Shown piece after piece: positions 18,729 through 36,025 of a stretch of DNA of 64,000 nt (position 1 is its first letter; each line of letters begins with the position of its first letter). The translations under genes and the position numbers were made by a program. Below the pieces are notes generated by a model. That model was not told the DNA's origin and made no database searches. It saw nothing but the letters and a program-made list of their open reading frames with translations. The stretch is from assembly GCA_944384205.1 (NCBI GenBank), contig CALWSL010000001.1, positions 124,001 to 188,000 of the forward strand, read 5' to 3'. Source of the stretch: an uncultured Acetatifactor sp. (lineage in GTDB: Bacteria; Bacillota; Clostridia; Lachnospirales; Lachnospiraceae).

Positions 18729-19346
18729 CTAGTGATAGAAACGAAAGACGCCGAATACTGTTCCCAGAATCTGGCAATCATCTACAATAATAGGCTCCAT
18801 GGAATCGTTCTCAGGCTGTAAACGTATATGACCGTTTTCCTTATAAAATGTTTTTACGGTGGCGGAATCATCAATCAGCGCAACAACCATTTCACCATTG
18901 CGCGCAGTGCTGCAGGAATGGACAAAAACACGGTCGCCGTCAAAAATACCGGCATTAATCATGGAATCACCGCGCACATTTAAGATAAATGCTTCTCCTT
19001 TTGGTACAACATCGGCAGGTACGGGAAAATATTCCTGAATATTTTCCTCTGCAAGAATCGGCTGTCCTGCGGCAACATTGCCTATAACGGGAATACTGAC
19101 CATCTCAGTGCGCACCATCTGAAAGCTGTCGTCACAGATTTCGATTGCACGTGGTTTTGTCGGATCTCTTCTAATATATCCGTTTTTTTCCAAAGTTTCC
19201 AAATGAGAATGAACAGAAGAGGTTGACTTTAAATTTACGGTTTCACAAATTTCTCTTACTGTGGGCGGATAGCCTTTTTTCAAAATCTCATTCTTAATAT
19301 AATCCAAAATCTCCTGTTGTTTGGCAGAAATTTTACCCAATGCCAT
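18729..19346 (-). CDS. lexA: LexA SOS repressor
   Basis: LexA represses DNA-damage genes and cleaves itself when RecA filaments form. The N-terminal winged helix (about residues 1-70) contains [20 protein letters not shown]. The self-cleavage site Ala-Gly is in IGNVAAGQP. The catalytic Ser is in [13 protein letters not shown] and the catalytic Lys follows DDSATV. The length of 205 residues is typical. It is transcribed away from a YneA-like gene across an SOS operator region, so autoregulation is expected. Confidence 0.97.
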
Positions 19347-19389
19347 ATAGTACCTCCATTCGTTTAGCGTGTTTTAAACCTCTGAATCA

Positions 19390-19418
19390 AGTATAACACA
19401 GAATTTTCGGAAAAGCAA
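19390..19418 (-). promoter_or_regulatory. lexA promoter
   Basis: On the minus strand, TTGCTT (19413-19418), a 17-bp spacer, then TATACT (19390-19395). A degenerate SOS-box-like site (19417-19428) abuts the -35. Confidence 0.6.
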
Positions 19419-19500
19419 ACATATATTCCAAAAATATGTTCGATTTTTCTATTGACAAAAGAAAATATGTTCGGTACAATACAATCAGAACGAACGTTCC
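19417..19500. promoter_or_regulatory. SOS operator cluster between lexA and the yneA-like gene
   Basis: GAACGAACGTTC (19488-19499) matches the Gram-positive LexA box core GAAC-N4-GTTC exactly. A one-mismatch copy, GAAAATATGTTC (19461-19472), lies inside the spacer of the rightward promoter. Two weaker copies lie at 19430-19441 and 19417-19428, nearer lexA. Confidence 0.75.
19452..19480 (+). promoter_or_regulatory. Promoter of the yneA-like gene, with an SOS box in the spacer
   Basis: Consensus TTGACA (19452-19457), a 17-bp spacer that contains a near-perfect LexA box, then TACAAT (19475-19480). A perfect LexA box begins 8 bp after the -10, so LexA binding should block this promoter. Confidence 0.8.
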
Positions 19501-19597
19501 GAACGCATATTCATTTTTCCGGAATTGCGGAAAATGAATATGGATAAAACTTATGTGGACATGTATAAGAGGTTTCTGAAAGATAGGAGATAGCAAT

Positions 19598-20011
19598 ATG
19601 AGAGTACAGAAGAATTTAACCGTACCCGGAAACATTTACAGAATGACTGACAGGGAGCTGCGAATTTATAAGAAGCGGTTGGCTCGCCGGATTGGCATAA
19701 GACGCAGATTTATAATGATTTTAATGACCGTCTGTCTGATTTTAATTTGCACTGTGTTTTATCATTCCATGAAATCAAGTGCAAACACAGGAGACGAGAA
19801 GGTTAATTTTAAATATTATACCAGCATTATGGTAGGGTATGGAGACACTCTGTGGAAAATTGCAGACGAATATATTGATTACAGCGAGTATAAGGACAAG
19901 GAAACCTATCTTGCAGAGGTCAGAAATATGAACCACCTTGATGATGATTCTGACATCAAGGCAGGTCAATATCTCATCGTACCTTATTATTCCTATGAAT
20001 TCGTAAAGTGA
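19598..20011 (+). CDS. YneA-like SOS-induced cell division inhibitor (TM plus LysM)
   Basis: A 137-residue protein with a basic cytoplasmic N-terminus, one transmembrane helix (about residues 38-56) and an extracellular LysM domain. The LysM motifs are GYGDTLWKIADEY and IKAGQYLIVPYY. In Bacillus, yneA is divergent from lexA, has this architecture and stops division after DNA damage. Here the gene is also divergent from lexA and carries LexA boxes in its promoter. The function is inferred from context and architecture. AGGAG precedes the ATG. Confidence 0.8.
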   Translation: MRVQKNLTVPGNIYRMTDRELRIYKKRLARRIGIRRRFIMILMTVCLILICTVFYHSMKSSANTGDEKVNFKYYTSIMVGYGDTLWKIADEYIDYSEYKDKETYLAEVRNMNHLDDDSDIKAGQYLIVPYYSYEFVK

Positions 20012-20041
20012 TATAAGGTAAACTTAATGTTTTTTCAGAAG

Positions 20042-21103
20042 TCAACGTTTTTCTCTTAGCTGCACCTTATTAGCGGCTGTCCTGCGGCGTGCATCCTCCT
20101 GGGCAGCATAATGTTTTCTGGTGGTGTTGACATCCTTGTGACCTAATACGTCAGCCACCAGATAGATATCATTCGTGGACTGATAGAGAGAGGTACCATA
20201 AGTACTGCGCAGCTTATGAGGTGTTATTTTTTTCAGACTGGTAACTCTGGAGGCGTATTTTTTAACTAGATTCTCCACAGAACGGACTGCCATACGGCGG
20301 TTCTGCAAGGAGAGAAAGAGTGCATTTTCATGCCCTTGGGCGGGGATGATATGCTCCCTTTGTTCCATATAGTCCAATAAGGCTTTTTCTACCTCTTCTC
20401 CGAAATAAACAACGGCTTCATATCCGCCTTTTCTGCGGATTTTGATTCCTCCCACATCAAAATTAACATCGGAGATATCTAATCCAACACATTCCGAGAC
20501 ACGGATACCTGTACCTAAAAGAAGCGTTAAAAGCGCCACATCACGTACCTTGGTTTTCTTGTGATATTCCAGTTCTTTTTTGGTGAGCTTCGTACCATCC
20601 TCCACCTGATCCAGCAAAATAGCCACTTCGTCCGGTTCCAAACGAATAATTTCTTTTTCGTGACGTTTGGGAAGCGGCACAAGTGCAGCCGGATTTTTTT
20701 CAATATATTCATTTTCATAGAAATAGTTATAGAAGCTTCTAAGGGAAGCCAGTTTTCTTGCCCTGCCCCGCTCGTCATTCGTAATATCCCTGCCATCCTT
20801 TTGGTAAAGAGTAATGTACTCCAGATATTCTTCAATATCCATACGGGTCAGGTTATCCAGAATGGATAAAGGGAAATCCTTGATTTCCATTTTTGCGCAT
20901 ATGCTGTTCTGTTCATGCAGAAATTCAAAAAACAGACGGATATCATAAGCATAGGCAAGTCTCGTTCTTGCAGAGGTATATTCTTCTATGCCACGGAAAA
21001 AGGTTTTGCAGAAGGAGGGAAGCGTATCCAGCACTGCACGAAGCTTGACAATATTTTGTTTGTTCTGTTCATCATGATAGTTTTCTTTTTTTATGACTGG
21101 CAT
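20042..21103 (-). CDS. Tyrosine recombinase of the XerC/XerD type
   Basis: A 353-residue tyrosine recombinase. It has an N-terminal SAM-like core-binding domain (to about residue 150) and a catalytic domain with Arg in GTGIRVSE, Lys in RRKGG, HKLRSTYG (His and Arg), GHKDVNTT (His), and nucleophile Tyr in RKHYA. It starts 1 bp after the TtcA-like gene. A chromosomal dimer-resolution role is possible, but it is not next to dif or other Xer landmarks. No mobile element is recognisable around it. Confidence 0.85.
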   Translation of the reverse strand: MPVIKKENYHDEQNKQNIVKLRAVLDTLPSFCKTFFRGIEEYTSARTRLAYAYDIRLFFEFLHEQNSICAKMEIKDFPLSILDNLTRMDIEEYLEYITLYQKDGRDITNDERGRARKLASLRSFYNYFYENEYIEKNPAALVPLPKRHEKEIIRLEPDEVAILLDQVEDGTKLTKKELEYHKKTKVRDVALLTLLLGTGIRVSECVGLDISDVNFDVGGIKIRRKGGYEAVVYFGEEVEKALLDYMEQREHIIPAQGHENALFLSLQNRRMAVRSVENLVKKYASRVTSLKKITPHKLRSTYGTSLYQSTNDIYLVADVLGHKDVNTTRKHYAAQEDARRRTAANKVQLREKR

Positions 21104-21104
21104 A

Positions 21105-21821
21105 TTAAAGTTCCCATTCTTCCATATTACTGTTTTGTATTGCGGTAAATATTCTTTTCTTCACGCCGGGATTCTCCAGATTTATCTGCCGCAGAAGTCC
21201 TTTGATATATTCCCGTTTCGTGTGTCCGTCTATGGGACAGGGACTTTTCAGGACAGGTATATGGTATTTGTTTACAAATCCCATAATATCAGCCTCACCT
21301 ATATATATCAGAGGACGAATGACGGTAATGCCGGTGCGATCCAAATGCGTAACCGGAGAAAAGGTGTGCCATCTGCCTTCATAAATCAGAGACAGAAGCA
21401 TGGTTTCAATCACATCATCCCTGTGATGCGCATAGGCGATTTTATTACAGCCCATTACGGTAAGCTGTTCATTCAGGGCGCCTTTCCGCATTTTTGCGCA
21501 AAGCGAGCAGGGATTGGACTCCTTCCTCACATCGAAAACAATTTGTGATATTTCGGTTTTGATAATGGTATATTCTACCTCCAGAGTGCCGCATACTTTT
21601 TTTATTTCATCAAAATCTACATTCTCAAATCCCATATCCGCCGTAACAGCGTATAATTCAAAGGCTTCAGGATAGAAACGGCGCAGATTGCCCAGCGCAT
21701 AGAGAAGCGTGAGACTGTCTTTTCCGCCGGAGATTCCGACAGCAATTTTATCGCCTTTTTCAATCATATGATAATCGTCTGCTGCTTTGCGCACGCCGCT
21801 GAGTAACTGTTGTAATTTCAT
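21105..21821 (-). CDS. TtcA-family tRNA sulfurtransferase-like protein
   Basis: A PP-loop ATP pyrophosphatase of the TtcA/TtuA type, which thiolates tRNA bases. The PP-loop motif SGGKDSLTLL lies at residues 30-39. The Fe-S ligands are suggested by NPCSLCAKMRKG and a later Cys in KSPCPIDG. YAHHRDDVIETMLL is also a TtcA-type block. It is 238 residues, short for E. coli TtcA but usual for the clostridial group. AAGGATA lies upstream of the ATG. The target base is not determined from the sequence. Confidence 0.85.
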   Translation of the reverse strand: MKLQQLLSGVRKAADDYHMIEKGDKIAVGISGGKDSLTLLYALGNLRRFYPEAFELYAVTADMGFENVDFDEIKKVCGTLEVEYTIIKTEISQIVFDVRKESNPCSLCAKMRKGALNEQLTVMGCNKIAYAHHRDDVIETMLLSLIYEGRWHTFSPVTHLDRTGITVIRPLIYIGEADIMGFVNKYHIPVLKSPCPIDGHTKREYIKGLLRQINLENPGVKKRIFTAIQNSNMEEWEL

Positions 21822-22002
21822 GTATAAGTATCCTTCTATATTTGATAATTTCTGGGACTGGTTACAATTTTAATCATATTTTATAATTTTTGAAGAAAAA
21901 AAACAATAGAAAGAGCAGATACCTATTATAATTTATAAAAATCGGGAAACAATGCTAAGGAATCAAATATTTCGTGCATATAACAATGGTTAGGAGGAAA
22001 AA

Positions 22003-22608
22003 ATGCCAATCGAATTTAAAGACAGCGTAACAAAGGATAATCTTATGAGAGCTTTTGCAGGAGAAAGTCAGGCGAGAAACCGCTATACCTTTGCGGCTTC
22101 TCAGGCAAAGAAAAATGGTCTGCATGTCATAAGCGCCATTTTTGCATTCACGGCATCTCAGGAGAAGGAACATGCTGAAATTTTTTACAACCATTTGAAA
22201 GAGATGGCAGGAGAAAATATATTTGTTGACGGCGGTTATCCTGTAGATATTTCAGACAGTATGGAAGATCTTCTGAAAATGGCGCAGCATAACGAATATG
22301 AAGAGCATGATCCGGTATATCAGCAATTCGGTGAAAAGGCGGCCGAAGAGGGCTTTCAAAAGGTTGCAGCCTCTTTTTTACAAATTGCAAAGATTGAAAA
22401 GACTCATGGAGACCGCTTCGGATATTATGCAAAACTGTTGGAGGAAGGAAAGCTGTTCGTATCAGATGTTGAGGTAGAATGGATGTGCTTAAACTGCGGA
22501 TTTGTATATAAGGCGAAAAAGGCACCTGAAATTTGTCCGGTATGCCAGCATAATCAGGGATATTTTATTCGGTTTGAATTTATGCCTAATTTTCCTTTCT
22601 TAACTTGA
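22003..22608 (+). CDS. rbr: Rubrerythrin
   Basis: Rubrerythrin reduces hydrogen peroxide in anaerobes using a diiron centre and a rubredoxin-like iron. The ferritin-like domain provides Glu and His ligands in AGESQARNRYTF, EKEHAEIF and EKTHGDRF. The C-terminal rubredoxin domain has CLNCG and CPVCQ. The length is 201 residues. An AT-rich near-palindrome TTATAATTTATAA lies about 70 bp upstream and could be a weak PerR-type site. AGGAGG precedes the start. Confidence 0.95.
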   Translation: MPIEFKDSVTKDNLMRAFAGESQARNRYTFAASQAKKNGLHVISAIFAFTASQEKEHAEIFYNHLKEMAGENIFVDGGYPVDISDSMEDLLKMAQHNEYEEHDPVYQQFGEKAAEEGFQKVAASFLQIAKIEKTHGDRFGYYAKLLEEGKLFVSDVEVEWMCLNCGFVYKAKKAPEICPVCQHNQGYFIRFEFMPNFPFLT

Positions 22609-22633
22609 GATATAAGGGAAATCAGTGTATTAT

Positions 22634-22674
22634 ATTATAAGGAGCGGTTTTTTACCGTTTCCTTATAATTTTTC
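22634..22674 (+). terminator. Rho-independent terminator after rubrerythrin
   Basis: ATTATAAGGAGCGGT pairs with ACCGTTTCCTTATAAT across a T-rich loop, followed by TTTTTC. Confidence 0.75.
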
Positions 22675-22712
22675 AATACATAATTTTAATACGGAAGAGG
22701 GACGATGATATA

Positions 22713-24152
22713 ATGAAGTTTAAGTTGAATAATAAATATTTTCGCTGGGGTCTGACAGCCTTTCTTGTGATTGCAGCGAGTATCTGTTTTTATTATCTGT
22801 TATTTCACGGTACAGATATAAAAAACGGTTTTAATTCCATTTTCAGACTGTTGACGCCTATCATATTTGGCTTTGTAATGGCATATTTAATGACACCGAT
22901 TTTGAATTATATTGAATATCGCATACTGATTCCATTATGTAATAAATGGAAGATAAAAGATACGACAAAGAGAAGCAAAATCATTCGGGGAATTAGTATT
23001 TTATTAACAGTGTTTTTGTTTTTCGCTATTATTTACGGCTTGATTGCCATGCTGCTGTCTCAGATTGTTCCCAGTATCGCAAATATTATTTCAAATTTCG
23101 ACGGATATGTCAGTAATTTTATTAAATGGTTAAACAAGCTGCTCTCAGATGATTATCCTGAGGTGGGCGCTCAGATAACAAAAATGATTGATACTTATTC
23201 CGAAGAATTGGAAGTATGGCTGAACGATACCGTATTAACAAAATCCAGTGAACTGATAAGAACAGTTTCCTTGAGTGTTATCAATGTATTAAAGCTGCTT
23301 TGGAATTTTTTAATTGGTCTGATGATTTCTCTCTATGTACTTGCCGGAAAGGAGAAATTTGCAGGTCAGGCAAAAAAACTGACATATGCAATATTTGACA
23401 ATGATGTGGCAAATATTATAATTAATAATTTCCGATTTACCCACAAAACTTTTATCGGATTCTTGAGCGGCAAAATTCTGGATTCTATTATTATAGGCAT
23501 TTTGTGTTTTATCGGTACCAGCATCCTTCATACGCCTTATGCGGCGTTAGTCAGTGTGATCGTAGGTGTAACCAATGTAATACCGGTTTTCGGACCTTAT
23601 TTGGGAGCAGTTCCCAGTACTGTTTTGATTTTTGTAGTCGATCCTACCCATCCCCTTAATTGCGTCTATTTCGTAATTTTTATATTAATTTTACAACAAT
23701 TTGACGGGAATTTTCTTGGACCCAAAATTTTGGGAGAATCAACCGGACTTACAGGTTTCTGGGTAATTTTTTCCATAACATTGTTTGGCGGTTTATTTGG
23801 CGTAATGGGAATGGTTATTGGTGTACCGACGTTTGCGGTATTTTATGCCGCTGTCAAATCGTTTGTAAATACGTTATTGAGTAAAAAAAATATTCCGCAG
23901 GAAACTAATGTATATATTAATGTTGCTGCCGTTGAAGAAAATACCTTATATGAATATGTTCCGGATTACAAATTAAAAAAGGGCGAACGGGGTAAGAATG
24001 CCTTTGGAAAAGAATTTCTGTTTCATATTGATAAAAGCAGGGTGCAGGCTTATGATGTCATGACAGAACCGGAAGAAGATAATAATGCCGAAAACGGGAC
24101 GGCAGATATAGCTTCTGGCAACACAGCAGCAACTGAGGAGGAAAAAAAGTAA
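22713..24152 (+). CDS. AI-2E family transporter (YdbO/PerM-type permease)
   Basis: A 479-residue membrane protein with about eight transmembrane segments. An early hydrophobic pair is followed by a long extracytoplasmic region (about residues 130-180) and a C-terminal bundle containing NVIPVFGPYLGAVPS and FDGNFLGPKILGE, both hallmarks of the AI-2E exporter family. The soluble C-terminal tail is acidic. The family name is historical and the substrate is not known. The stop is followed directly by dtd. Confidence 0.88.
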   Translation: MKFKLNNKYFRWGLTAFLVIAASICFYYLLFHGTDIKNGFNSIFRLLTPIIFGFVMAYLMTPILNYIEYRILIPLCNKWKIKDTTKRSKIIRGISILLTVFLFFAIIYGLIAMLLSQIVPSIANIISNFDGYVSNFIKWLNKLLSDDYPEVGAQITKMIDTYSEELEVWLNDTVLTKSSELIRTVSLSVINVLKLLWNFLIGLMISLYVLAGKEKFAGQAKKLTYAIFDNDVANIIINNFRFTHKTFIGFLSGKILDSIIIGILCFIGTSILHTPYAALVSVIVGVTNVIPVFGPYLGAVPSTVLIFVVDPTHPLNCVYFVIFILILQQFDGNFLGPKILGESTGLTGFWVIFSITLFGGLFGVMGMVIGVPTFAVFYAAVKSFVNTLLSKKNIPQETNVYINVAAVEENTLYEYVPDYKLKKGERGKNAFGKEFLFHIDKSRVQAYDVMTEPEEDNNAENGTADIASGNTAATEEEKK

Positions 24153-24602
24153 ATGCGTTTTGTGATACAGCGGGTAACGGAAGCCAACGTTAAGGTAGAG
24201 GGTACAACAATTGGGCAGATTGAAAAAGGATTTGTAGTGTTTATCGGTGTGAGCGATGATGATACAAAGGAAATTGCAGATAAAATGACTAAGAAAATGC
24301 TTGGACTGCGCATTTTTGAGGATGAGAACGGGAAAACCAATCTTGATTTGAAAACAGTAGACGGACAACTCCTTTTAATTTCACAATTTACTTTGTATGC
24401 AGATTGTAAAAAGGGAAATCGTCCTTCTTTTATTAAGGCAGGTGCGCCGCAACATGCCCAAATGCTTTATCAATATATCATAGAGTCCTGTAAGCAGGAG
24501 ATAGCGGCAGTGGAGCAGGGAAGCTTTGGCGCTGATATGAAGGTTTCACTGATAAATGACGGTCCGTTTACGATTGTTCTGGATTCTGCAGAGATAATGT
24601 AA
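24153..24602 (+). CDS. dtd: D-aminoacyl-tRNA deacylase
   Basis: DTD hydrolyses D-aminoacyl-tRNAs and glycyl-tRNA(Ala) to protect translation. It begins [17 protein letters not shown] and has the family blocks [17 protein letters not shown] and [11 protein letters not shown], including the cross-subunit Gly-cisPro-like region and the SQxxL motif. The length is 149 residues. It starts directly after the AI-2E permease stop with GGAGGAAAAAAAG upstream, so the two are cotranscribed. Confidence 0.96.
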
Positions 24603-24619
24603 ATATTGTTTGTCTCTAT

Positions 24620-24648
24620 TTACAAAAATTGCTTTATATGTTATAACA
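24620..24648 (+). promoter_or_regulatory. Candidate promoter of the THF riboswitch transcript
   Basis: TTTACA (24620-24625), a 17-bp spacer, then TATAAC (24643-24648), about 30 bp before the riboswitch. Confidence 0.55.
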
Positions 24649-24675
24649 AATATGATTAAAAAATAAAAATTTATT

Positions 24676-24775
24676 AGCAGAGTAGAAAACTGTGCGTTAA
24701 GTGCCATATGAACAGGGAGTTGTCATACGGACGAAAAGCGTAAAGCTTGCGGTACAGATTTCGCATCCCGCTGCT
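24676..24775 (+). promoter_or_regulatory. Tetrahydrofolate (THF) riboswitch
   Basis: The sequence carries the class I THF aptamer blocks in order: AGAGTAGA, GCGTTAAGTG, GGGA-GTTGTC, GACGAAAAGCG, TTGCGGT and GCATCC. The terminal AGCAG (24676-24680) and CTGCT (24771-24775) close P1, and CTGT/ACAG supports P2. The riboswitch normally controls folate transport or synthesis. Here the downstream folT is truncated almost immediately after the aptamer, so the expression platform and start codon are lost. An 85-codon open frame across this RNA is not a gene. Confidence 0.88.
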
Positions 24776-24776
24776 G

Positions 24777-25013
24777 CATATTGGTTGTTTTTTGTGCCTC
24801 TTTTATGTAGTTTAGGGAATCCTGGTTGCGGAATTTGTGGTAAAATTAATTGTAAACTGTATCTTGAATACACTTTGGATTTGCATGCTATATGGAAAAG
24901 GTTTTGTTGCCATATTGCCGCTCAGACTGCTAAAAAATGTTATTATGCTGCCTATTGACAGTGCAATTCTGTATGTTGCATTGGTTTATGTGAAGAAGCT
25001 GGTAAAGCGTTAG
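24777..25013 (+). pseudogene. folT: Truncated folate ECF transporter S component (folT remnant)
   Basis: The frame ending at TAG 25011-25013 reads as the C-terminal part of a FolT-type S component. The recognisable segments are LVAEFVVKLIVN, ILNTLW, MLYGKGF, LPLRLLKNVIMLPID and a final membrane helix ending KKLVKR. It is interrupted by an in-frame TAG at 24813-24815. The first ~100 codons, including the start, are missing: coding sequence resumes just after the riboswitch. The THF riboswitch upstream supports the folate assignment independently. The Tn7-like element starts 16 nt after the stop. Confidence 0.78.
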
Positions 25014-25028
25014 AATTTCCTTTCCAAA
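25004..25028 (+). repeat. 25-bp direct repeat, left copy (folT stop region)
   Basis: This copy is identical to 30507-30531. It contains the last folT codons and stop and ends one base before the transposon end. The core 22 bp could have been a tandem repeat in the target, with AAA contributed by a 5-bp target duplication (CAAAT here, CAAAG on the right). Confidence 0.9.
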
Positions 25029-25029
25029 T

Positions 25030-25204
25030 TGAAAAGTGAACTAAAGAAAGCACATAAATGATTCTATAATCCCCTAAAATTCAATACTACTATATTATAA
25101 GTGCCAACTATAATTCAAAATTTATTGAACTATAGTTGGCACTTATTTGTTTTTGAGAATGTTATATTTTGTTTAACTAAGTTTTGAACAAAACATAACA
25201 CTTA
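25030..25204. repeat. tnsA-proximal transposon end with four TnsB-type sites
   Basis: The related ~20-bp motifs have the form TTGAAC-N9-CACTTA. Sites lie at 25037-25056 (TGAACTA...AGCACATAA), 25101-25117 (inverted), 25125-25145 and 25184-25204. The second and third face each other and form a ~19-bp hairpin (25099-25145). The array is typical of Tn7-family ends. Confidence 0.75.
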
Positions 25205-25324
25205 TTTGCGTTATTATAATTTACACAATCAATAAAATATAGTAAAATATATTAAATATTATATTTTTACAGAAAATAAGCACTAACAACGCGCCGTGGA
25301 AAGTGAGATTGTTAATGCTCTTGT

Positions 25325-25395
25325 TAAAGTTACTCTTTTTGTCTATATATAATATAGCACATCTTTGTTTTCTATGCAACAAAAAAGTAACTTTA
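25325..25395. promoter_or_regulatory. Inverted repeat bracketing the probable tnsA promoter
   Basis: Arms 25325-25341 (TAAAGTTACTCTTTTTG) and 25380-25395 (CAAAAAAGTAACTTTA) are complementary except for one extra base. The loop carries TATAAT (25348-25353), a candidate -10 for the tns operon. It could be an operator pair or a 5' UTR hairpin. No regulator gene is encoded in the element. Confidence 0.5.
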
Positions 25396-25427
25396 CTCTG
25401 TAGGACAAGGAGAAGATAAAATACTTT

Positions 25428-26114
25428 ATGACTTATCTATATCAAACCCCTATTAAAATGCCTAGAGGATCTCACTATGGCAGTGATTATTGGATTTCTT
25501 ATAGCTACAAGTTAAAGCGCAAAGTATGTTTATACAGTATGTTAGAATATGCTAATTTCATTGTTTTAGAAATGAATCCGAATGTCGATTTCTTTTGTGA
25601 GCAACCCTGTAAAATAGAAGAAAATAAGACAGCAAGAATCTCCAGTTCTGTTTTAGATTTTTGGGTCCATTATCAGGATTCTTCTGCTGAATTTCAAGAG
25701 GTAAAATACTCTTATGAATTAGTAGGAACTGGAGATGCAGCTGAACGTTCACAACGACAAATAAAATTTCAACATGACTGGTGTGTTGAAAATGGATATA
25801 AATACAAAGTCATGACGGAGAAAGAACTTTACGATGGACCTTTCAAAATACAAAATTTACAATTATTACAAAGCCATATTTTACGACTGGAAGGTTTGAA
25901 TACATTTAACTTACGTAATTTCTTTGAGATGATAAAGACGCGTTCCATGTCTATAGGAGAAATAAAAGAACAAAGAATACTTCCTAATGATATGGAATTA
26001 AGTATTTTAGCTTATCAACACTACTTAGGAAACATAGAAATAGATGTAAAAAACAGACCTATAGATAATTGTACTGAGGTGAAAGTATGCGAAACAAAAA
26101 ATATAATCTTTTAG
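25428..26114 (+). CDS. tnsA: TnsA-like transposon endonuclease
   Basis: TnsA cuts the 5' strands at the transposon ends, allowing cut-and-paste movement with TnsB. The 228-residue protein has the restriction-fold catalytic set: Glu40 in SMLEYANF, Asp77 in SVLDFWV, and Gln90 with Lys93 in EFQEVK. The N-terminal nuclease domain is followed by a C-terminal region (from about residue 140) that would contact TnsC. AAGGAG lies 15 bp before the ATG, which is a little far. The gene overlaps tnsB by 28 bp. Having TnsA predicts simple insertions in place of cointegrates. Confidence 0.88.
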   Translation: MTYLYQTPIKMPRGSHYGSDYWISYSYKLKRKVCLYSMLEYANFIVLEMNPNVDFFCEQPCKIEENKTARISSSVLDFWVHYQDSSAEFQEVKYSYELVGTGDAAERSQRQIKFQHDWCVENGYKYKVMTEKELYDGPFKIQNLQLLQSHILRLEGLNTFNLRNFFEMIKTRSMSIGEIKEQRILPNDMELSILAYQHYLGNIEIDVKNRPIDNCTEVKVCETKNIIF

Positions 26115-28066
26115 AATTAAGGCAGGATAGAGAAGAATGGGCTTCTATAAAAACTGACTTATGGGTGCCTGAACAAAGAGAGCAATTTTTAAAGCGTAAA
26201 GAAGCTGTGGATATGTATATAGATGATTTTAACGCAAAAGATATATATGCAACTACAGGAATTAATCACGATAAAATTGCAAAATATGTTGCGCGTTGTC
26301 TTCAAATAGACCCTAATACAGGTAAACAGCAAGGGTACGTTGGTCTGATTCCATATCGGAAGGTAAATAAAAAAATCCAAACAAAAAGTTGTACTTCTGC
26401 ATCTAAAGGTGCATTTGTAAATCTGTTATTAAGTTATCCAAGTTTAGATGTCTTTATTAAAGATAATTATTTCGGAAAAAAGAATAGTTCATTGGAAAAG
26501 CGTATTTTACCCTCCAATTTACACAAAAAATTCCTTGAAGAATGTAGAAGATTAAAAATACAGGATTATGAATATCCTTTTAATACGACAGATAATGCAA
26601 AGCGTACTTTTTATAAATATTTGAGGAAAATAGAAAAAGAGAATATGAATGATGCAATAAATAGGGAAAATAAAAATGTAAAACAAAAGTTTTTTTCAAC
26701 GGGCATAGGGGAAAATCTGCGTCCAGTCCCTCTTACCCCCTTTTCTGTAGTACAACTGGATGGTCATAAAATAGATATGTTGTATACAGTGGAAGTCATA
26801 AATAAACATGGGGAAATTATTCGTATGCCTGCGATGCGCATGTGGCTTATAGCTGTTATAGATGTTGCTACTAGAGTTATTTTGGGATATAGCCTTACTT
26901 CCAATGAAAATTATAATCAAACGGATATCCTACGTGCCATCAGGAACTCTGTTATACCAAGGAATCCCATAGAATTTACATTATCTGGTTTAAAATATCC
27001 AGATAATTTAGGATATCATTATTGGGCTATTCCTGAAACAAGCTGGGCTATTCCTAATGCTATTATGCTTGACAATGCAAAATCTCATTTAGCCAATAAC
27101 GTTATTAATAAATTATGTTCACAGATGTATTGCGCCTTAAATTTTGGTTCTGTTGCAACGCCAGAAACAAGAGGAATTGTGGAACGAATGTTTAAGACTC
27201 TTGAAGAAAATGGTTACCATAGGACAGTATCAACAACAGGAAGCAATATAAATGATATTCGTCGTATTAATGCAGAAAAAGATGCCGTTAAGTTTCAAAT
27301 TACATACAATGATATAGCACAACTAACCGAGTACTTTATTGCTATGTATAATAATAGTCCGCACTCTGCGTTAGATAATCAAACTCCACTGGAATGTATG
27401 CGCCGGAGAATTGTAGAAGCAGGAATGCAACCTTGCATTGCAGGAAACAAAATGAAACGTGTGATTTATGAACTGACTAATTTTACAGAAATAAAAACAA
27501 TACGTGGAAGTTTTAAATATGGCAGACGTCCTTATATTACATATGCTGGAGTGGAATATCGAAATGATATTCTTGCGCAATCCATGGGATTAATTGGAAA
27601 AAAACTGATTATAGAGGTTAATCCTGACAATATTAAAACAATAAAAGGATATTTTGAGGATGGTACAGAGCTTGGTATATTAACTGCAGTAGGGGAATGG
27701 GGAAGAAAGAATCATTCATTAAAGACAAGGGAAGAAGCACTGAAACTTTCAAATTATAATAAGCAGAAAAACAACCCTTTTTATGCGCCGTTGACGGAGT
27801 TGGAAAATGAATTAAATGAACGTGCATTAAATGAAAGGCGTGCCAGAACAAAAGCAGCTAGATTACGCGTAGAGCAAGATAAAGAGATAACTCCTCAAGA
27901 AAATATTGTAAATATACCTACTGAATATTCCACATCCAATATTTATACAACAGTATCCGACGAAGAAGCAATTCAGAGAAAACGTGAAAGTTATACTCCG
28001 GAAGAATTAGCTGCCATTATGAATGCCGGTTCTTTGGAAGAGGCATATAATCAAGGGTTATTATAA
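26087..28066 (+). CDS. tnsB: TnsB-like DDE transposase
   Basis: TnsB binds the end repeats and performs 3'-strand cleavage and joining. The 659-residue protein has an N-terminal helical DNA-binding region, a retroviral integrase-like core and a C-terminal beta and charged tail. The catalytic triad can be read as Asp225 (VQLDGHK), Asp329 (MLDNAKSH) and Glu366 (GIVERMFKTLE). GAGGTG precedes the ATG. The stop and the tnsC start share one base (TAATG), which indicates translational coupling. Confidence 0.93.
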   Translation: MRNKKYNLLELRQDREEWASIKTDLWVPEQREQFLKRKEAVDMYIDDFNAKDIYATTGINHDKIAKYVARCLQIDPNTGKQQGYVGLIPYRKVNKKIQTKSCTSASKGAFVNLLLSYPSLDVFIKDNYFGKKNSSLEKRILPSNLHKKFLEECRRLKIQDYEYPFNTTDNAKRTFYKYLRKIEKENMNDAINRENKNVKQKFFSTGIGENLRPVPLTPFSVVQLDGHKIDMLYTVEVINKHGEIIRMPAMRMWLIAVIDVATRVILGYSLTSNENYNQTDILRAIRNSVIPRNPIEFTLSGLKYPDNLGYHYWAIPETSWAIPNAIMLDNAKSHLANNVINKLCSQMYCALNFGSVATPETRGIVERMFKTLEENGYHRTVSTTGSNINDIRRINAEKDAVKFQITYNDIAQLTEYFIAMYNNSPHSALDNQTPLECMRRRIVEAGMQPCIAGNKMKRVIYELTNFTEIKTIRGSFKYGRRPYITYAGVEYRNDILAQSMGLIGKKLIIEVNPDNIKTIKGYFEDGTELGILTAVGEWGRKNHSLKTREEALKLSNYNKQKNNPFYAPLTELENELNERALNERRARTKAARLRVEQDKEITPQENIVNIPTEYSTSNIYTTVSDEEAIQRKRESYTPEELAAIMNAGSLEEAYNQGLL

Positions 28067-29046
28067 TGGAGAACATTGATATGATTGTAAAAACAAAAGA
28101 TATACTAGATAATTATTTTGTATCCAATGAGTTCAATATTGCAACATCTGCAATTATAGAATTGCAAAATAAAATTTTGAAATGGGTGGCAGATGGAACT
28201 CCTGGAGCTATTGTGTATGGACGTCCGCGAATTGGAAAGACAAGAGCCATCCTCTATATTGCATCAGTTTTAAAGGCAAAATACGGACGTGACCTTCCCA
28301 TATATGTCTTAAATGCAACAGAACATATTCCCAAGAACAAATTTTTCTATTCTGAATTATTAAAAACAGTAGGACATCCGGAATTTGATAAAGGTACTGT
28401 CAGCATGTTGAAGGAGCGCCTGCTCAATTCACTTTTTACAAGTGCCTGCAACACAAAGTACAGAAAAATCATTCTTTTTATAGATGAAGCTTATAATTTT
28501 TCTGAAAAAGATTTTAAATGGCTTATGGATATTTATAACAATCTTAATTTAAAGGATATCCATTTATACGTATTTCTTATTGGTTCAGATGAATTGCTGG
28601 CTCGAAAACATGCACTTGTTATGGCGAAACAGCATCAGATTGTTGGCAGATTTATGGTAGAAGAGTGTCATTTTCATGGAATTCAGTCTGCAAAGGAATT
28701 GTCAATCTGTCTCTATAATTATGATAATCCGTTGGAAATAGCGGGCGAACAGGTTATACTTACAAAAAAATTTTTCCCAGAAGCATATGCTGATGGACGG
28801 CAATTTTCGGCAGACGCTGAAATAATCATGAACGAATATATAAAAATCATGAAGGAAATTGGTATTCCGCCGGCATCAGAGATTCCTATGATGTATTTTA
28901 TAAATATGGTTAAGTATTGCCTTAATAATTTCGGTATTTATGGTAAAAAACTGTATTTTCCAACAGAAGAAGCATGGCGGGAGTCTATTTTTAATTCAGG
29001 ATATGTTGCAGCAGAAAGGTTGTATTTTAATGTACCCATTGGATAA
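28066..29046 (+). CDS. tnsC: TnsC-like AAA+ ATPase
   Basis: TnsC links the target-selection protein to the TnsAB transposase and confers target immunity. The 326-residue AAA+ protein has Walker A GRPRIGKT at residues 52-59 and Walker B IILFIDEAYNF around residue 132. A sensor-type Ser/Asp follows in FLIGSDELL. It is smaller than E. coli TnsC (555 residues) and resembles the compact TnsC/TniB type. It overlaps tniQ by 17 bp. Confidence 0.92.
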   Translation: MENIDMIVKTKDILDNYFVSNEFNIATSAIIELQNKILKWVADGTPGAIVYGRPRIGKTRAILYIASVLKAKYGRDLPIYVLNATEHIPKNKFFYSELLKTVGHPEFDKGTVSMLKERLLNSLFTSACNTKYRKIILFIDEAYNFSEKDFKWLMDIYNNLNLKDIHLYVFLIGSDELLARKHALVMAKQHQIVGRFMVEECHFHGIQSAKELSICLYNYDNPLEIAGEQVILTKKFFPEAYADGRQFSADAEIIMNEYIKIMKEIGIPPASEIPMMYFINMVKYCLNNFGIYGKKLYFPTEEAWRESIFNSGYVAAERLYFNVPIG

Positions 29047-30295
29047 CGGAAAAGCTGAATATACATGGAAAGAAGAGTGGAATTTTTTATATGAGTCTTC
29101 GTGGGGGCGTATAGAAAAATTTAGAACGATAAACGTAATGGAACCGCCACAAATGGATAAAATTATTAGAATTGGTCCTAATTCTGGTATTGATGCACGT
29201 TTTTCATCCGAACTTTTAATTTTTCGTAATCAGGCTTTTAAAATTAACAACAACCTCTCATTTCTTAATATTGATAACAGCATTTTTTCAACTTTTACTG
29301 GAATGGATGGTTTGTTTGATAACAGAATCCGTTATTGTCCTGACTGTATGCAAAATGGCTACCATTCTTTTTTACATCAATTGACAGTTATGGATAATTG
29401 CTTTATTCACAATGCAACAAAATTAAAATATAGATGTTCCTGCACATATACCTATATATTAAGTCGAAAAAAAGCACAAACAAAAATCTACCAGTGTGAG
29501 TTTTGCAATGCAGAAATAGCCGATTTTGGTTCTATTTATGATTGTATTATTACAGATTTGTGGAATGATAAAAGATACAAAGCATTACGGTTATCTCAAT
29601 GCAGATTACAAGTGAATATATTGGATTTTTATTATATTGCACAAGGTTCCAAGAGGTTAAGAACATTAACTAACTTAAATATGCTTCAGAGGGATGCTTT
29701 ACGTGAACTAATTCTAAATGGTGAATCAAAATGTCAACCTCGATTTGTTATTAAAAAGAAGGTAGATGGTGCAGAATCTCCGTGCAAATTAATCATATCC
29801 AAAGCCCTGAATCAATATTTGACTGAGCATTATGAATATGATATTATTGTGGAGCATTATTTGCATGTATCTGCTCGATATCGTCGGTATGATATAGAAA
29901 ATTTTAATATAGAAATATTAACAATACTTTATCTACTTAAGGAATTACAATGCGTAGATGCAGTTGACCAATTACCTTATCAGTATACAGTACAGAATGA
30001 CAAAAGTATAAGTTCTCTATTTGAGACTGATAATAATTATTCACGCATAGTTGGATTTATTGAGTTATATTTATTCAGGTTTATGCACATAAAAGAAGAA
30101 GATTATATAGAAGCTTATAATGTAATATTGAAAGAATTAGTGCTGTCCAGGTATAATCATATATATAGCTGTTTCCAGGGGAATATTCCTGAAGAGTATC
30201 CGTGCACAAGTATGCGACAGGTTTCTTATAGAAATTGGGAATATCCATCTTTTGTTGTTATAAAAAATGAGAATGAAGATATCTTAATTTATTAA
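29030..30295 (+). CDS. tniQ: TniQ/TnsD-family target selector
   Basis: TniQ-family proteins direct Tn7-like elements to specific targets. The 421-residue protein has the family's N-terminal region and a Cys/His zinc finger: YCPDCM, then His in CFIHNATKL, CSC, and a second pair in YQCEFC. A C-terminal region of ~250 residues has no evident motif and probably reads DNA sequence. The ATG at 29030 is chosen because the longer frame (from 28940) lies inside tnsC. By position it is the only candidate for recognising the folT 3' end. Confidence 0.85.
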   Translation: MYPLDNGKAEYTWKEEWNFLYESSWGRIEKFRTINVMEPPQMDKIIRIGPNSGIDARFSSELLIFRNQAFKINNNLSFLNIDNSIFSTFTGMDGLFDNRIRYCPDCMQNGYHSFLHQLTVMDNCFIHNATKLKYRCSCTYTYILSRKKAQTKIYQCEFCNAEIADFGSIYDCIITDLWNDKRYKALRLSQCRLQVNILDFYYIAQGSKRLRTLTNLNMLQRDALRELILNGESKCQPRFVIKKKVDGAESPCKLIISKALNQYLTEHYEYDIIVEHYLHVSARYRRYDIENFNIEILTILYLLKELQCVDAVDQLPYQYTVQNDKSISSLFETDNNYSRIVGFIELYLFRFMHIKEEDYIEAYNVILKELVLSRYNHIYSCFQGNIPEEYPCTSMRQVSYRNWEYPSFVVIKNENEDILIY

Positions 30296-30331
30296 AGAAA
30301 AGTATAGAACAAAAGATATAGTGGTGAAAAA

Positions 30332-30505
30332 TTGAACTATAGTAGGCACATTAATGTTTTTATGTGCCTACTATAGTTCAAAAAGATGTAATAAGTAACA
30401 TATATGTGCCATGAATAATTCAAAAAAAATATACACACAGAAGTGATATGTGCTACAATACATACGAATTCTTCACTATATGTGCTAAGTATAGTTCATT
30501 TGACA
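30332..30505. repeat. tniQ-proximal transposon end with five TnsB-type sites
   Basis: Sites of the form TGTGCC-N7-AGTTCAA lie at 30332-30350 (inverted), 30363-30381, 30405-30423, about 30449-30470 (weak) and 30481-30498, the last running into the terminal TTTGACA. The first two are exact inverted copies over 19 bp and form a strong hairpin (30332-30381), mirroring the other end. Confidence 0.75.
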
Positions 30506-30506
30506 C

Positions 30507-30531
30507 AAAGCGTTAGAATTTCCTTTCCAAA
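30507..30531 (+). repeat. 25-bp direct repeat, right copy
   Basis: Identical to 25004-25028. It begins one base beyond the transposon end. The sequence following it (from 30532) is presumably the original DNA downstream of folT. Confidence 0.9.
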
Positions 30532-30637
30532 CCCATGGAAATATAAGTTATGAACTAACAATGTATGAGTGATTTTTTGGCTTAACTATTCGTTAAACTA
30601 TGGTTTTGCGCATAGTTGTATGTATGCTTATAACTGC

Positions 30638-30680
30638 TTTCATCACGGCTATTATGAAATATTTAATAGCCGCGATGAAA
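30638..30680. other. 17-bp hairpin without a T tract
   Basis: Arms 30638-30654 and 30664-30680 pair over 17 bp with one mismatch. The + strand is followed by an A run, so it is not a canonical terminator for either direction. It lies just past the stop of the minus-strand lipoprotein. The rest of 30532-30699 shows no gene. Confidence 0.6.
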
Positions 30681-30699
30681 AAAAATAAATTTGTATTAG

Positions 30700-31386
30700 T
30701 CACGGATTGAGGACAAATTGCGATGTGTCAGGATCCCAAATCAATATCGCTATAATTTCTGCTGGATTTGTCAATTCATCTTCATATGAAATAATCAGAC
30801 AATCATCTGTCGAAAAACAAAAGTATTCGGAGCCCAAAGAGTTTCTTGAATCTATTGGAATTGTTTTCAAGGCATCTATTGAGTACTCCACCCACTGATT
30901 ATCTTGAATTTCACAAAGCTGAATACATTGTATTGATATCCCTTGCGATGTTACTGTCCCTAAAACTAATATTCTACTTTTTCCATTACCGGATTCCATA
31001 CAGTTTATTACAACTTTATCAAATGCAAACTCTTTATATGCTATCGTTTCCAAAGTATTTGCCGTCAAAAGGAGTCCCACAGTTTTATCTAAACCTGCTA
31101 CATGAGGAGAATTTAGGATTTTGCATGTCACTAATATCTCAGCAACACCATCTTGTGAAAATGAGCCGTAATAAATCTGATCTATAGCAATTTCTGTTGC
31201 ACTGACAGTACCGTCTTCGTAATTTTCTATTACCTTTTCTACAATGCAATTATTAAGTTCAGAAAGTATATTCGTATGATAATTGTTTGTATTTTTCTTT
31301 GGCGTACACGCAAAAATGAATAACGTTGTAAATAAAACAAGAATCAGAACTACTGGAACTTTCATTCTTCTCATTCTTTTTCTCAC
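30700..31386 (-). CDS. Putative lipoprotein of unknown function
   Basis: A 228-residue protein with a basic N-terminus and hydrophobic stretch ending in LFIFAC (a lipobox), then a Thr/Asn-rich linker. The mature part has an alternating beta pattern and two regions that echo FG-GAP-like repeats (GSFSQDGVAEILV and a later DDCLIISYEDE). No named family is recognised. The start is GTG 31386 or one of two in-frame ATGs (31374, 31365). It lies between the Tn7-like element and the AlkD gene, in DNA that looks accessory. Confidence 0.65.
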   Translation of the reverse strand: MRKRMRRMKVPVVLILVLFTTLFIFACTPKKNTNNYHTNILSELNNCIVEKVIENYEDGTVSATEIAIDQIYYGSFSQDGVAEILVTCKILNSPHVAGLDKTVGLLLTANTLETIAYKEFAFDKVVINCMESGNGKSRILVLGTVTSQGISIQCIQLCEIQDNQWVEYSIDALKTIPIDSRNSLGSEYFCFSTDDCLIISYEDELTNPAEIIAILIWDPDTSQFVLNP

Positions 31387-31465
31387 ATTCTTTATTTATT
31401 AATGTTAATAAGCTAATTTAATGGGCAAGATGCAATACAACAATTTGTATAGTAATATAACAGAA

Positions 31466-31650
31466 TTATTCCAGAAAAGTATTTGCAGCGATTGCTTGTA
31501 CACGATATAACTCGCTTGTCTGTGCTGAAGTCAGTCCCTTTCCCGTATAATAGCTTGTCCCATACAATTCAGAAGACAAAACTGTATAGATATATGTTTG
31601 TCTATTAACATTTCTAGTTTTAACTGTAATTATTTCATCTTCAAACTCCT
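31466..31650 (-). pseudogene. Orphan reading frame, possibly a gene fragment
   Basis: On the minus strand a frame of ~60 codons ends at 31466. It is coding-like (IYTVLSSELYGTSYY, GKGLTSAQTSELYRV) and overlaps the 3' end of the AlkD gene in another frame. No start codon with a ribosome binding site is visible. It may be the C-terminal remnant of a lost gene, or chance. The remaining gap (31387-31465) holds nothing recognised. Confidence 0.3.
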
Positions 31651-32319
31651 CAGATATACCTTTTGCCCGGCTGTAATGCGGTAACTCTCGATTGCCTTCT
31701 GGATGGCTTTATTGTGGGTCCACCGGCTTAATCTGTGATTTTCCAAATATGGCAGTACTGCATCATACTGTTTGGTAAGCGCGGTGGCAAAATACCATGC
31801 AATCATCATGTTTACATAGTACTCCTCCGAGCGGACTGCCGCCACCATATCCGGATATTCGGAGGAAAACGCTTCGTCCAGATAATATTTCATCAGCATA
31901 CCAATCCCGAAACGAATCGTATAAGTATGGTCGGAAGTGATCCATTCCCTGATTTTTACAAGTAATTCGGGCAGATGCTTTTGAAAGAATTTGGGAGACA
32001 TCATATCGCAGGTTGCCCAGTTGTCAACATAGGGTAAAAAGGCGTCCAGCGCTGTAATCACGGCATCGTAATCCTTGATATCCTCTATCAGAAAACCATG
32101 CAGATTGTTTTCATCATAATATTTGTGAGGAAGCAGCTTCAAATATTCTTCTGCCTGTGGTGTTTTGGACAACTGTTTCGCATATTTGCGAAGGACGGGC
32201 GTCCGCACTCCGATGATATTCTCAGGATTCACAGAGGGAATCAGCTTGGAGTGAAAGTCACGATATGCTTTATCCTGTAATGCAAATAAATCGCTGCGAA
32301 TCTGTTCTTCTGTATTCAT
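31630..32319 (-). CDS. AlkD-like DNA alkylation repair protein
   Basis: A HEAT-repeat DNA glycosylase-like protein of the AlkC/AlkD superfamily. Typical blocks are GVRTPVLRKYAKQL near the N-terminus, EENNLHGF-like helix pairs, VDNWATCDMMSPK, and the C-terminal LSRWTHNKAIQKAIES. The Trp/Asp in DNWATCD align with residues that AlkD uses at the lesion. ATG 32319 has AAAGGA at a workable distance; the ATG at 32331 abuts that site and is less likely. The length is about 229 residues. It appears to be a single-gene unit. Confidence 0.85.
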   Translation of the reverse strand: MNTEEQIRSDLFALQDKAYRDFHSKLIPSVNPENIIGVRTPVLRKYAKQLSKTPQAEEYLKLLPHKYYDENNLHGFLIEDIKDYDAVITALDAFLPYVDNWATCDMMSPKFFQKHLPELLVKIREWITSDHTYTIRFGIGMLMKYYLDEAFSSEYPDMVAAVRSEEYYVNMMIAWYFATALTKQYDAVLPYLENHRLSRWTHNKAIQKAIESYRITAGQKVYLRSLKMK

Positions 32320-32357
32320 GTTTTGATTCATCCTTTTCTATATTTTTATGTACATAA

Positions 32358-33341
32358 CTATAAAATCACCAGTGGATTTTCAATACAATTCATCATATCA
32401 TGAACGTTCTGAATCGTCTTGTATGCCATATCCCTTACTACCTTTCTGGTGTAAAATGCGGTGTGGGGAGAAAGGATTACGTTGGGGAAGGAACGAAGGA
32501 TTGCCATAGTGCGGTTGTCAATCACATCGCCGATACGGTTGCTGTAATAGAGTCCGTCCTCGTTCTCCAGCACATCCAGCGCAGCATACCCTACTTTCCC
32601 GGTGATAAGCGCATCGATCAACGCATCCGTATGAATCAGGGCGCCTCTGGCAGTATTGATAATGATGACATCATCCTTCATCTGCGCAAATGCCTTCGTA
32701 TTCAGCATATGGTAGCTTTCCGCATTGGAAGGGGTATGCAGGGTGATGATATCACTTTGGGCATATAATTCTTCCAGACTGACATATTCCGCTGTTTTTG
32801 CACATTCCTCGTTCGGATACAAATCATAGGCAAGCAGACGGCAGCCGAAAGAAGAAAGATGCTTTATCACGGTTGCCCCGATCTGCCCGGTTCCGATAAT
32901 TCCCACGGTACAGTCGCATAAATCCTTTCCCATTTTGCCTTTTAACGTGTAATCCTGAAGCTTTGCGCGTTCCAGAATGGGATAGATTTTACGGCAGCAC
33001 ATGAGCATCAGCATGATTGCGTAATCTGCAACGGTTTCCGGCGCATAGGATACATGGGCAACACCCATGCCAAGCTCCTTTGCCCTGGTTAAATCAATAT
33101 GGTCAAAGCCGATAGAGCGGGTTGCAATATAACGCACACCTGCCTGATAAAACAAATTTAGCATATCGGCGCCCAGATCACAGGGCGTTGCGCTGATAGC
33201 ATCATAGCCTCTTGCCAGCTCTACATTTTCGGGACTGGGATACTCTGTGGTATATCCGTATTCACAATGAAATTCTTTGGAAAATTGGTCAAAAAATTCC
33301 TTTTCATCAAATTCTCTCAGTGCATAGGCAAAAATCTTCAT
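32358..33341 (-). CDS. D-isomer-specific 2-hydroxyacid dehydrogenase (D-lactate dehydrogenase-like)
   Basis: This NAD-dependent enzyme interconverts 2-keto and D-2-hydroxy acids. The Rossmann motif is VGIIGTGQIGATV. The catalytic Arg is in NTARGALIH, the Glu in LDVLENEDGLYY, and the His in LSPHTAFYT. The overall layout resembles LdhA/VanH proteins, so pyruvate to D-lactate is the likely reaction, though aryl-lactate relatives exist. ATG 33341 with GAGGA upstream is preferred to the longer TTG start at 33359. It has no close operon partner. Confidence 0.87.
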   Translation of the reverse strand: MKIFAYALREFDEKEFFDQFSKEFHCEYGYTTEYPSPENVELARGYDAISATPCDLGADMLNLFYQAGVRYIATRSIGFDHIDLTRAKELGMGVAHVSYAPETVADYAIMLMLMCCRKIYPILERAKLQDYTLKGKMGKDLCDCTVGIIGTGQIGATVIKHLSSFGCRLLAYDLYPNEECAKTAEYVSLEELYAQSDIITLHTPSNAESYHMLNTKAFAQMKDDVIIINTARGALIHTDALIDALITGKVGYAALDVLENEDGLYYSNRIGDVIDNRTMAILRSFPNVILSPHTAFYTRKVVRDMAYKTIQNVHDMMNCIENPLVIL

Positions 33342-33394
33342 GTGTAATCCTCGCTTCAAGTATTTATTCCCTTTTGGTCTATAACTGTCTAAAA

Positions 33395-33943
33395 TCAGTA
33401 ATAGGCAAAAAAGTACGCCGCCATCTGAGCCCTTGAGCTGAAGGGTTCGGTTTCCAGCAGTTTTTTTACCTCTTCACGGCTGTAAAAGCGCGCTTCGATT
33501 TCTTCGTTATCCGAGGTGTGGTCATCAAACTCTCCTTCTACCTCAACAAACGCAATATAGGTGGTGGTATCGGAGATTGCCACTGCTGCATAGGAAGGAG
33601 GCAGAATTTTTATCATTCTTTTGACGCGGAGTCCGGTCTCCTCATATAACTCTCTTTCAATGCAGTCCTCAATCTTCTCGCCCTGCTCCAGCATTCCGGC
33701 GCAGAGATTATAAATGGTGCGGTTTACGCCCATGCGGAACTCATGCAGTAAAAGCAGCTTCCCTTCATGGGTGGCAACGATGGAGACGCCGCTGGGTGCG
33801 CCGCCCACATCTTCAATGCTTTCCAGCTCTCTTCTGCTGACAATTTCATATTTCTTTTCCCTGCCTGATTTATTGCGGTAGGTAATCTCATAATTTTTCA
33901 GATATTTACCGTCTTTTACTTTTTCAAAATTTAAAAATTCCAA
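33395..33943 (-). CDS. NUDIX hydrolase, ADP-ribose pyrophosphatase-like
   Basis: The NUDIX box is clear (residues starting GMLEQGEKIEDCIERELYEE), preceded by a beta-rich N-terminal domain as in ADP-ribose pyrophosphatases. The TTG at 33943 is preferred: AAAGGA lies 7 bp upstream, while the ATG at 33976 has no ribosome binding site and lies deep in the preceding gene. This start makes it 182 residues (MEFLNFEKVK). It overlaps the end of the RNase E/G gene by 13 bp, implying coupling. Confidence 0.85.
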   Translation of the reverse strand: MEFLNFEKVKDGKYLKNYEITYRNKSGREKKYEIVSRRELESIEDVGGAPSGVSIVATHEGKLLLLHEFRMGVNRTIYNLCAGMLEQGEKIEDCIERELYEETGLRVKRMIKILPPSYAAVAISDTTTYIAFVEVEGEFDDHTSDNEEIEARFYSREEVKKLLETEPFSSRAQMAAYFFAYY

Positions 33944-35253: not shown

Positions 35254-35285
35254 AGCTTACATCCTTCTTCTTTTTAATTTTTAAA

Positions 35286-35999: not shown

Positions 36000-36025
36000 A
36001 AATTACTTTACCCTTTCCGTTTCGT

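Follow-up and report, generated by a model that had tools for sequence, protein, structure and literature searches.

According to the available text of PMC2918618, Tn7, which uses TnsABC together with TnsD, inserts about 20 bp past the stop codon of glmS. The attachment sites of Tn7 relatives given in the accessible part of PMC11406308 are glmS, parE, tRNA genes, and comM, next to the CRISPR-guided sites guaC, yciA, ffs, and rsmJ; in the same text, a parE-targeting TniQ is described for the type I-F3 element Tn7017 and a tRNA-targeting TnsD for I-B2 and I-D elements. Where a locus has TniQ as well as TnsD, a protein of more than 400 amino acids suggests direct target selection (PMC10293859, as far as its available text goes). 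Transposases related to TnsB also occur in the IS1202 group, whose elements make duplications of 16 to 28 bp (PMC10132070, available part). The earlier note knew of no Tn7-like family that uses folT; among the best literature matches, no paper named it as a site of the Tn7 family, and the word "folT" was absent from the available text of PMC10293859 and PMC8649781.

Here, we analyzed a 64,000-nucleotide stretch (the window) of a 3.15-Mb genome of an uncultured Acetatifactor sp., corresponding to positions 124001 to 188000 of its contig C1. The window contains a cargo-free element of about 5.48 kb, with ends enclosing about 25029 to 30507 and the gene order tnsA, tnsB, tnsC, tniQ (Table 1). G+C content per 1-kb step was 29 to 35% over 25000 to 31000, versus 36 to 47% elsewhere in 20000 to 36000. 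Gene order, insertion shortly past the stop codon of a gene, and arrays of TnsB-like sites in both ends are shared with Tn7. Unlike Tn7, the element is free of cargo and lacks another reading frame between its ends that could encode TnsE, its candidate target is folT, its flanking repeat is 24 to 25 bp instead of 5 bp, and its proteins are highly diverged. Choice of the attachment site by a TniQ-family protein, as proposed here, would be shared with Tn7017 and the I-B2 and I-D elements, from which the element differs in target and in leaving no room for CRISPR-Cas genes. The single TniQ of this locus has 421 amino acids, compared with two selectors in the case described in the available text of PMC10293859. 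Genes in the right flank (30700 to 33976) were rejected as cargo, as they lie outside the right copy of the repeat.

Table 1. Features of the element and its surroundings (window coordinates)
Feature	Position	Strand	Basis
dtd (D-aminoacyl-tRNA deacylase), left host neighbor	24153-24602	+	PF02580, E 4.2e-59
THF riboswitch aptamer, complete	24676-24775	+	RF01831, 95.1 bits vs gathering score 36
folT remnant, last 65 codons and stop	24816-25013	+	TIGR04518 match; alignment with intact L064
24-bp direct repeat, left copy	25005-25028	+	Includes folT stop codon; 25 bp with 25004
Left terminus, 8 nt	25029-25036	+	Without TGT, unlike both ends of relative G484
TnsB-site-like repeat, outermost left	25037-25056	+	Site comparison
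Terminator-like hairpin from two opposed TnsB-like sites, then T-rich tail	25097-25146	+	-26.2 kcal/mol
TnsB-site-like repeat, inner left	25185-25204	+	Site comparison
tnsA	25428-26114	+	PF08722, E 2.1e-9, 38.2 bits (cut-off 26.5)
tnsB	26087-28066	+	PDB TnsB 7svw, E 2.1e-9; clade profile, 3.4e-15
tnsC (AAA+ ATPase)	28066-29046	+	AAA_22, E 8.2e-10
tniQ, 421 aa	29030-30295	+	Weak PF06527 match; clade-wide support
Opposed TnsB-like site pair, right end	30333-30380	+	Site comparison
TnsB-site-like repeat, right	30403-30422	-	Site comparison
TnsB-site-like repeat, outermost right	30479-30498	-	Site comparison
Right terminus	30499-30507	-	TGTG start reading inward, if 30507 is counted
24-bp direct repeat, right copy	30508-30531	+	Window search

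A TnsA endonuclease, a TnsB DDE transposase, and a TnsC/TniB AAA+ ATPase were all recognized. A profile of the clade's TnsA recovered Tn7 TnsA (1f1z, E = 4.2e-4). TnsC matched TniB at E = 5.7e-4 (19.8 bits, under the cut-off of 22.4), and no PDB match was found for it by profile at E ≤ 0.01. For TniQ, the start at ATG 29030 was chosen by hand (the mechanical reading frame begins at 28940). The window protein alone matched PF06527 at E = 0.074 (14.1 bits; cut-off, 27), six of eight clade members matched at E ≤ 0.5 (best, 8.1e-5), and the TniQ profile gave a weak match to PDB TniQ (E = 0.061); a fold search with TniQ was dropped, as the structure model (mean pLDDT, 39.9) was unusable. TnsA, TnsB, and TnsC place the element among the Tn7-like elements, the TniQ match is weak, and no 5-bp duplication was found for the window copy.

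The reading frame that ends at 25013 had been taken in the earlier note for the C terminus of a FolT-type protein behind a THF riboswitch, and both identifications were confirmed (Table 1). The frame (24816 to 25010) matched TIGR04518, the FolT family, at E = 2.1e-9 (37.4 bits; profile positions 104 to 158 of 163), a score below the whole-protein cut-off of 60, as expected of a fragment. It does not extend back to 24777, as had been supposed, since an in-frame stop lies at 24813 to 24815; the stop codon of folT itself is at 25011 to 25013. In alignment with the closest intact folT among 39 compared loci (L064; 70% identity across the window fragment), the window lacked one large internal block, which starts in the 5′ leader and reaches far into the coding sequence; the start codon, its ribosome-binding region, and the N-terminal two-thirds are gone. 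The window folT is thus a remnant and not a working gene: the FolT 3′ end described in the earlier note is real, and the gene is reduced to 65 codons. Across 64 codons, the remnant differed from L064 at 18, 5, and 33 of the first, second, and third codon positions, respectively, and the third position was the most variable in all eight relatives compared. This pattern suggests that folT was kept by protein-level selection until recently. The well-conserved riboswitch now precedes a start-less remnant (24676 to 25013) and may control nothing or may read towards the element. Searches of the genome gave a single folT match (E ≤ 0.001) and a single THF riboswitch, both being those of the window, and folT is sporadic in the genus (4 of 138 genomes, this one counted). 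Another locus (L070, on contig C5 of G204) has two tandem THF riboswitch-folT units with a spacing of about 1.9 kb.

The element starts at 25029, leaving 15 nt (25014 to 25028) behind the folT stop codon; placement past the stop was as previously proposed, and the distance was 1 nt shorter than the 16 nt given then. Three TGAACTATAGTTGGCACATA-like sites in inward orientation were found at the left end and three at the right, together with two additional TnsB-like sites in opposite orientation that are able to pair with their neighbors. Repeated TnsB-like sites are present at both ends of the window element; a terminal TGT is present at the right end, if 30507 is counted, and absent from the left. 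Both ends are abutted by an exact direct repeat, absent from the earlier note, that contains the folT stop codon and measures 25 bp at its longest (25004 to 25028 and 30507 to 30531). No direct match shared by the flanks was longer than these 25 nt (next longest, 13), and, with up to three mismatches allowed, the window held the 24-bp core at these two positions only (mean of 0 in 100 shuffles). The gap from the repeat to the outermost site was 8 nt at each end when 25 bp were counted, or 8 nt left and 9 nt right when 24 bp were counted. Comparison of the left stretch 24960 to 25420 with the right stretch 30293 to 30700 gave no pair of TGT...ACA ends flanked by a 5-bp duplication. The repeat is at odds with a simple Tn7-type insertion and is the most surprising part of the locus.

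We consider that there is an even chance that the locus represents a cargo-free, divergent Tn7-like transposon, with TnsA plus TnsB, TnsC, and one TniQ/TnsD-type selector, for which a TniQ-chosen folT 3′ end served as the attachment site and in which the repeat arose from the insertion. TniQ would bind the end of the folT coding sequence, TnsC would bridge TniQ to TnsAB, and the element would join just past the folT stop codon with its tnsA side facing folT. Insertion would have taken place into a folT that was still intact or had been lost only a short time before, folT itself having lost its start region and N-terminal two-thirds. The 24-bp repeat would be either an unusually long target duplication made by this insertion or the result of two joins close to each other. 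A folT attachment site, seen in a single insertion, is plausible.

Two accounts of the repeat have to be weighed. It could be composite: two ordinary insertions with 5-bp duplications, separated by about 20 bp and located on sister molecules, may have undergone recombination inside the element, or a later rearrangement may have copied the flank. This account would explain the irregular left terminus and the lack of a 5-bp duplication with TGT...ACA ends in the scanned stretches, and it agrees with the 5 bp duplicated by a relative in the same genus (G484); the near-equal spacing at which both ends are abutted resembles a single target duplication instead, and we rate a composite origin at slightly under an even chance. 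Alternatively, the repeat could be a true long target duplication made by a Tn7-like transposase, for which the near-symmetric spacing speaks, as does the precedent of 16 to 28 bp in the IS1202 group (PMC10132070, available text). The 5 bp of the G484 element argue against it, as does the residue seven positions past the presumed catalytic E366, which by eye is E and not the Q of the IS1202 family. A long duplication is a real possibility that likewise falls somewhat short of being probable. The IS1202 group shares with the window element a TnsB-related transposase and, if the repeat is a target duplication, long duplications, and, according to the available text of PMC10132070, it consists of insertion sequences without TnsA, TnsC, and TniQ, with Q at E+7; the window element has four tns genes and, assuming that E366 is catalytic, E at this position.

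Relatives of the element were sought with TniQ and TnsB. Among 397 genomes of the family, TniQ gave four matches, this genome included, of which G338 and G231 were real and G107 was rejected: the supposed TniQ relic near folT in that genome (E = 4e-5) had a translation that was not TniQ-like, and tblastn gave no match there. The TnsB profile matched 3 of 138 genomes in the genus (this one, G484, and weakly G542), 4 of 392 in the order (this one, G715, G825, and weakly G690), and 8 of 391 in the class (this one, G1074, G1124, and five weak matches); the weak matches (G690, G052, G863, G877, G1035, G1206, and G542) were dropped. A search of genome contigs recovered the G338 contig once more and added L017 (contig CAMWWJ010000276.1), with TnsB 73% and TniQ only 32% identical to the window proteins. 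The L017 contig ends inside or right at the element, leaving no flanks, and the guess that its left half was on contig C90 of G1214 failed. Identity to the window proteins was 17 to 32% for TniQ, 36 to 73% for TnsB, 35 to 82% for TnsC (five rows aligned), and 32 to 42% for TnsA (six rows aligned). The selector TniQ was the most diverged protein, as expected if targets change. Scans of viral contigs with TnsB and TnsC gave no relative, phages gave no match to the element, and 254 plasmid records matched, all at less than 60% identity; the one plasmid relative scanned for a 5-bp duplication had no convincing pair of ends (best, 13 of 30). A distant relative on Klebsiella grimontii plasmid pNY3A (L105; TnsB, 38%) adjoins genes annotated as SAVED-domain, ThiF-family, Mov34/MPN, and nucleotidyltransferase, presumably a set resembling CBASS-type defense genes.

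The left end could be placed in three elements, and in all three it lies behind the 3′ end of a reading frame, with the folT target not shared. The G484 element (L057) begins at 7363 of the reverse complement, 14 nt past the stop codon (7346 to 7348) of a 92-amino-acid reading frame that had no Pfam match and may not be a gene; its ends are TGT...ACA and alike at 24 of 30 positions, and it is flanked by the 5-bp duplication ATAAC. The left end in G715 (L040), placed by eye at 6620, is 31 nt past the stop codon of an acetyltransferase gene (PF12746). The Tn7 geometry claimed for the window element recurs in the G484 relative. In the elements with left ends that are not fixed, the gene before tnsA encodes a permease (ArsP_1) in G1074, a product with no Pfam match in G825, and an E1-E2 ATPase in G1124; neither end could be fixed in L014, L041, and L053, nor the right end in L040 and L052.

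Repeated insertion behind folT, which the earlier note had suggested looking for among TniQ relatives, was not seen. No folT match was found in the seven related element loci (L014, L015 [degraded], L040, L041, L052, L053, and L057), and no tns genes were found within the 2.3 to 3.2 kb examined at the 39 other folT/THF loci, 34 of which contained the FolT C terminus. These 39 loci, from which the window's own is excluded, came from seven of eight positive genomes in one search, three of the four folT-containing genomes of the genus, and the best-scoring 29 of 134 in a further search, most covering about 1.5 kb beyond the match. Because the relatives' TniQ proteins are only 17 to 32% identical to that of the window, these relatives neither confirm nor refute a folT site. 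Relatives at unrelated sites, named in the earlier note as evidence against the site, do exist, but they weigh little for the same reason, and even the closer L017, which lacks flanks, has a TniQ with 32% identity. No empty site was found: the lipoprotein-like gene of the right flank was present in 11 of 138 genomes of the genus (this one included), and the three such loci examined had none of the window's other neighbors.

Between the left end and tnsA, the element has a hairpin formed by two opposed TnsB-like sites (25098 to 25117 on the minus strand and 25126 to 25145 on the plus strand), with a stability that was equaled by none of 40 shuffles. A consensus terminator scan of 24560 to 25460 did not return it and gave 24959 to 24983 (plus strand) and 25295 to 25279 (minus strand). 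T-tailed hairpins were present upstream of tnsA in all seven stretches compared, each reaching from the preceding gene or element end to tnsA (the window, L057, L040, L014, L041, L052, and L053), each more stable than any of 40 shuffles. In three of these (the window, G484, and L040), in which left ends were placed, the hairpin is surely inside the element; in L014, L041, L052, and L053, with ends not fixed, it could belong to the upstream gene. A hairpin at this position would be expected of elements that land behind genes, and it would insulate the tns genes from the gene behind which the element landed. The opposed pair of sites in the right end has no T-tail, and the best right-end hairpin reached -2.1 kcal/mol.

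The site could also reflect the region and not the gene, with the dtd-nudix interval permissive, folT incidental, and TniQ recognizing another feature or being loosely specific. In its favor, the same interval is occupied in G484 by another member of the clade (TnsB, 47%), on its nudix side and behind another reading frame, so that one genus has two such elements there. The two genes are moreover adjacent in G517 and G018 (L090 and L099), and an int orthologue (55 to 100% identity) and the element are no more than about 4 kb apart in this genome (G000), G484, G231 (where the element is degraded), and G715; in G1124, the nearby homologue is weaker (34%). By contrast, int and the element are on different contigs in G338 and G825, and G1074 has no close int homologue. 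By a rough estimate, the proximity of int and element is above chance, with the caveat that some contigs are unlinked and that the window was the starting point. A search for dtd in 15 genomes of the genus yielded 14 loci, of which 10, including that of G484 itself, had neither nudix nor rng within 1.5 kb, so that the interval is not constant; nudix was adjacent in two and rng near in two others, and folT was found at none of the 14. Both elements mapped in the interval lie 14 to 15 nt past stop codons, which argues for recognition of a 3′ end, and we consider a regional hot spot rather unlikely. The int gene (20042 to 21103), which we take to be XerC-like, was rejected as the element's recombinase because its orthologues in G338 and G825 are nowhere near the element. 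As a separate observation, elements of the clade recur near lexA, XerC-like, ttcA, dtd, and nudix genes (window 18729 to 33976; L057, L015, L040, and L053), a neighborhood that is possibly an integration hot spot; the ttcA label is our assumption, the family match being to PP-loop only. A further reading, which we consider rather improbable, is that a Tn7-like element with full TnsABC-TniQ, using the folT 3′-end site, duplicated about 24 bp of target at once by an IS1202-like long stagger, copying the stop codon to the far side.

If TniQ does choose the folT 3′ end, this small, single, diverged protein would add to the known sites a compact, protein-guided module for targeting, found in Clostridia. 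Should the 24-bp duplication not be real, the locus illustrates how an element can come to stand at a rearranged site next to a gene in decay. A genuine 24-bp duplication would be an exception to the stated rule of 5 bp in all Tn7 relatives and would tie Tn7 to the IS1202 group.
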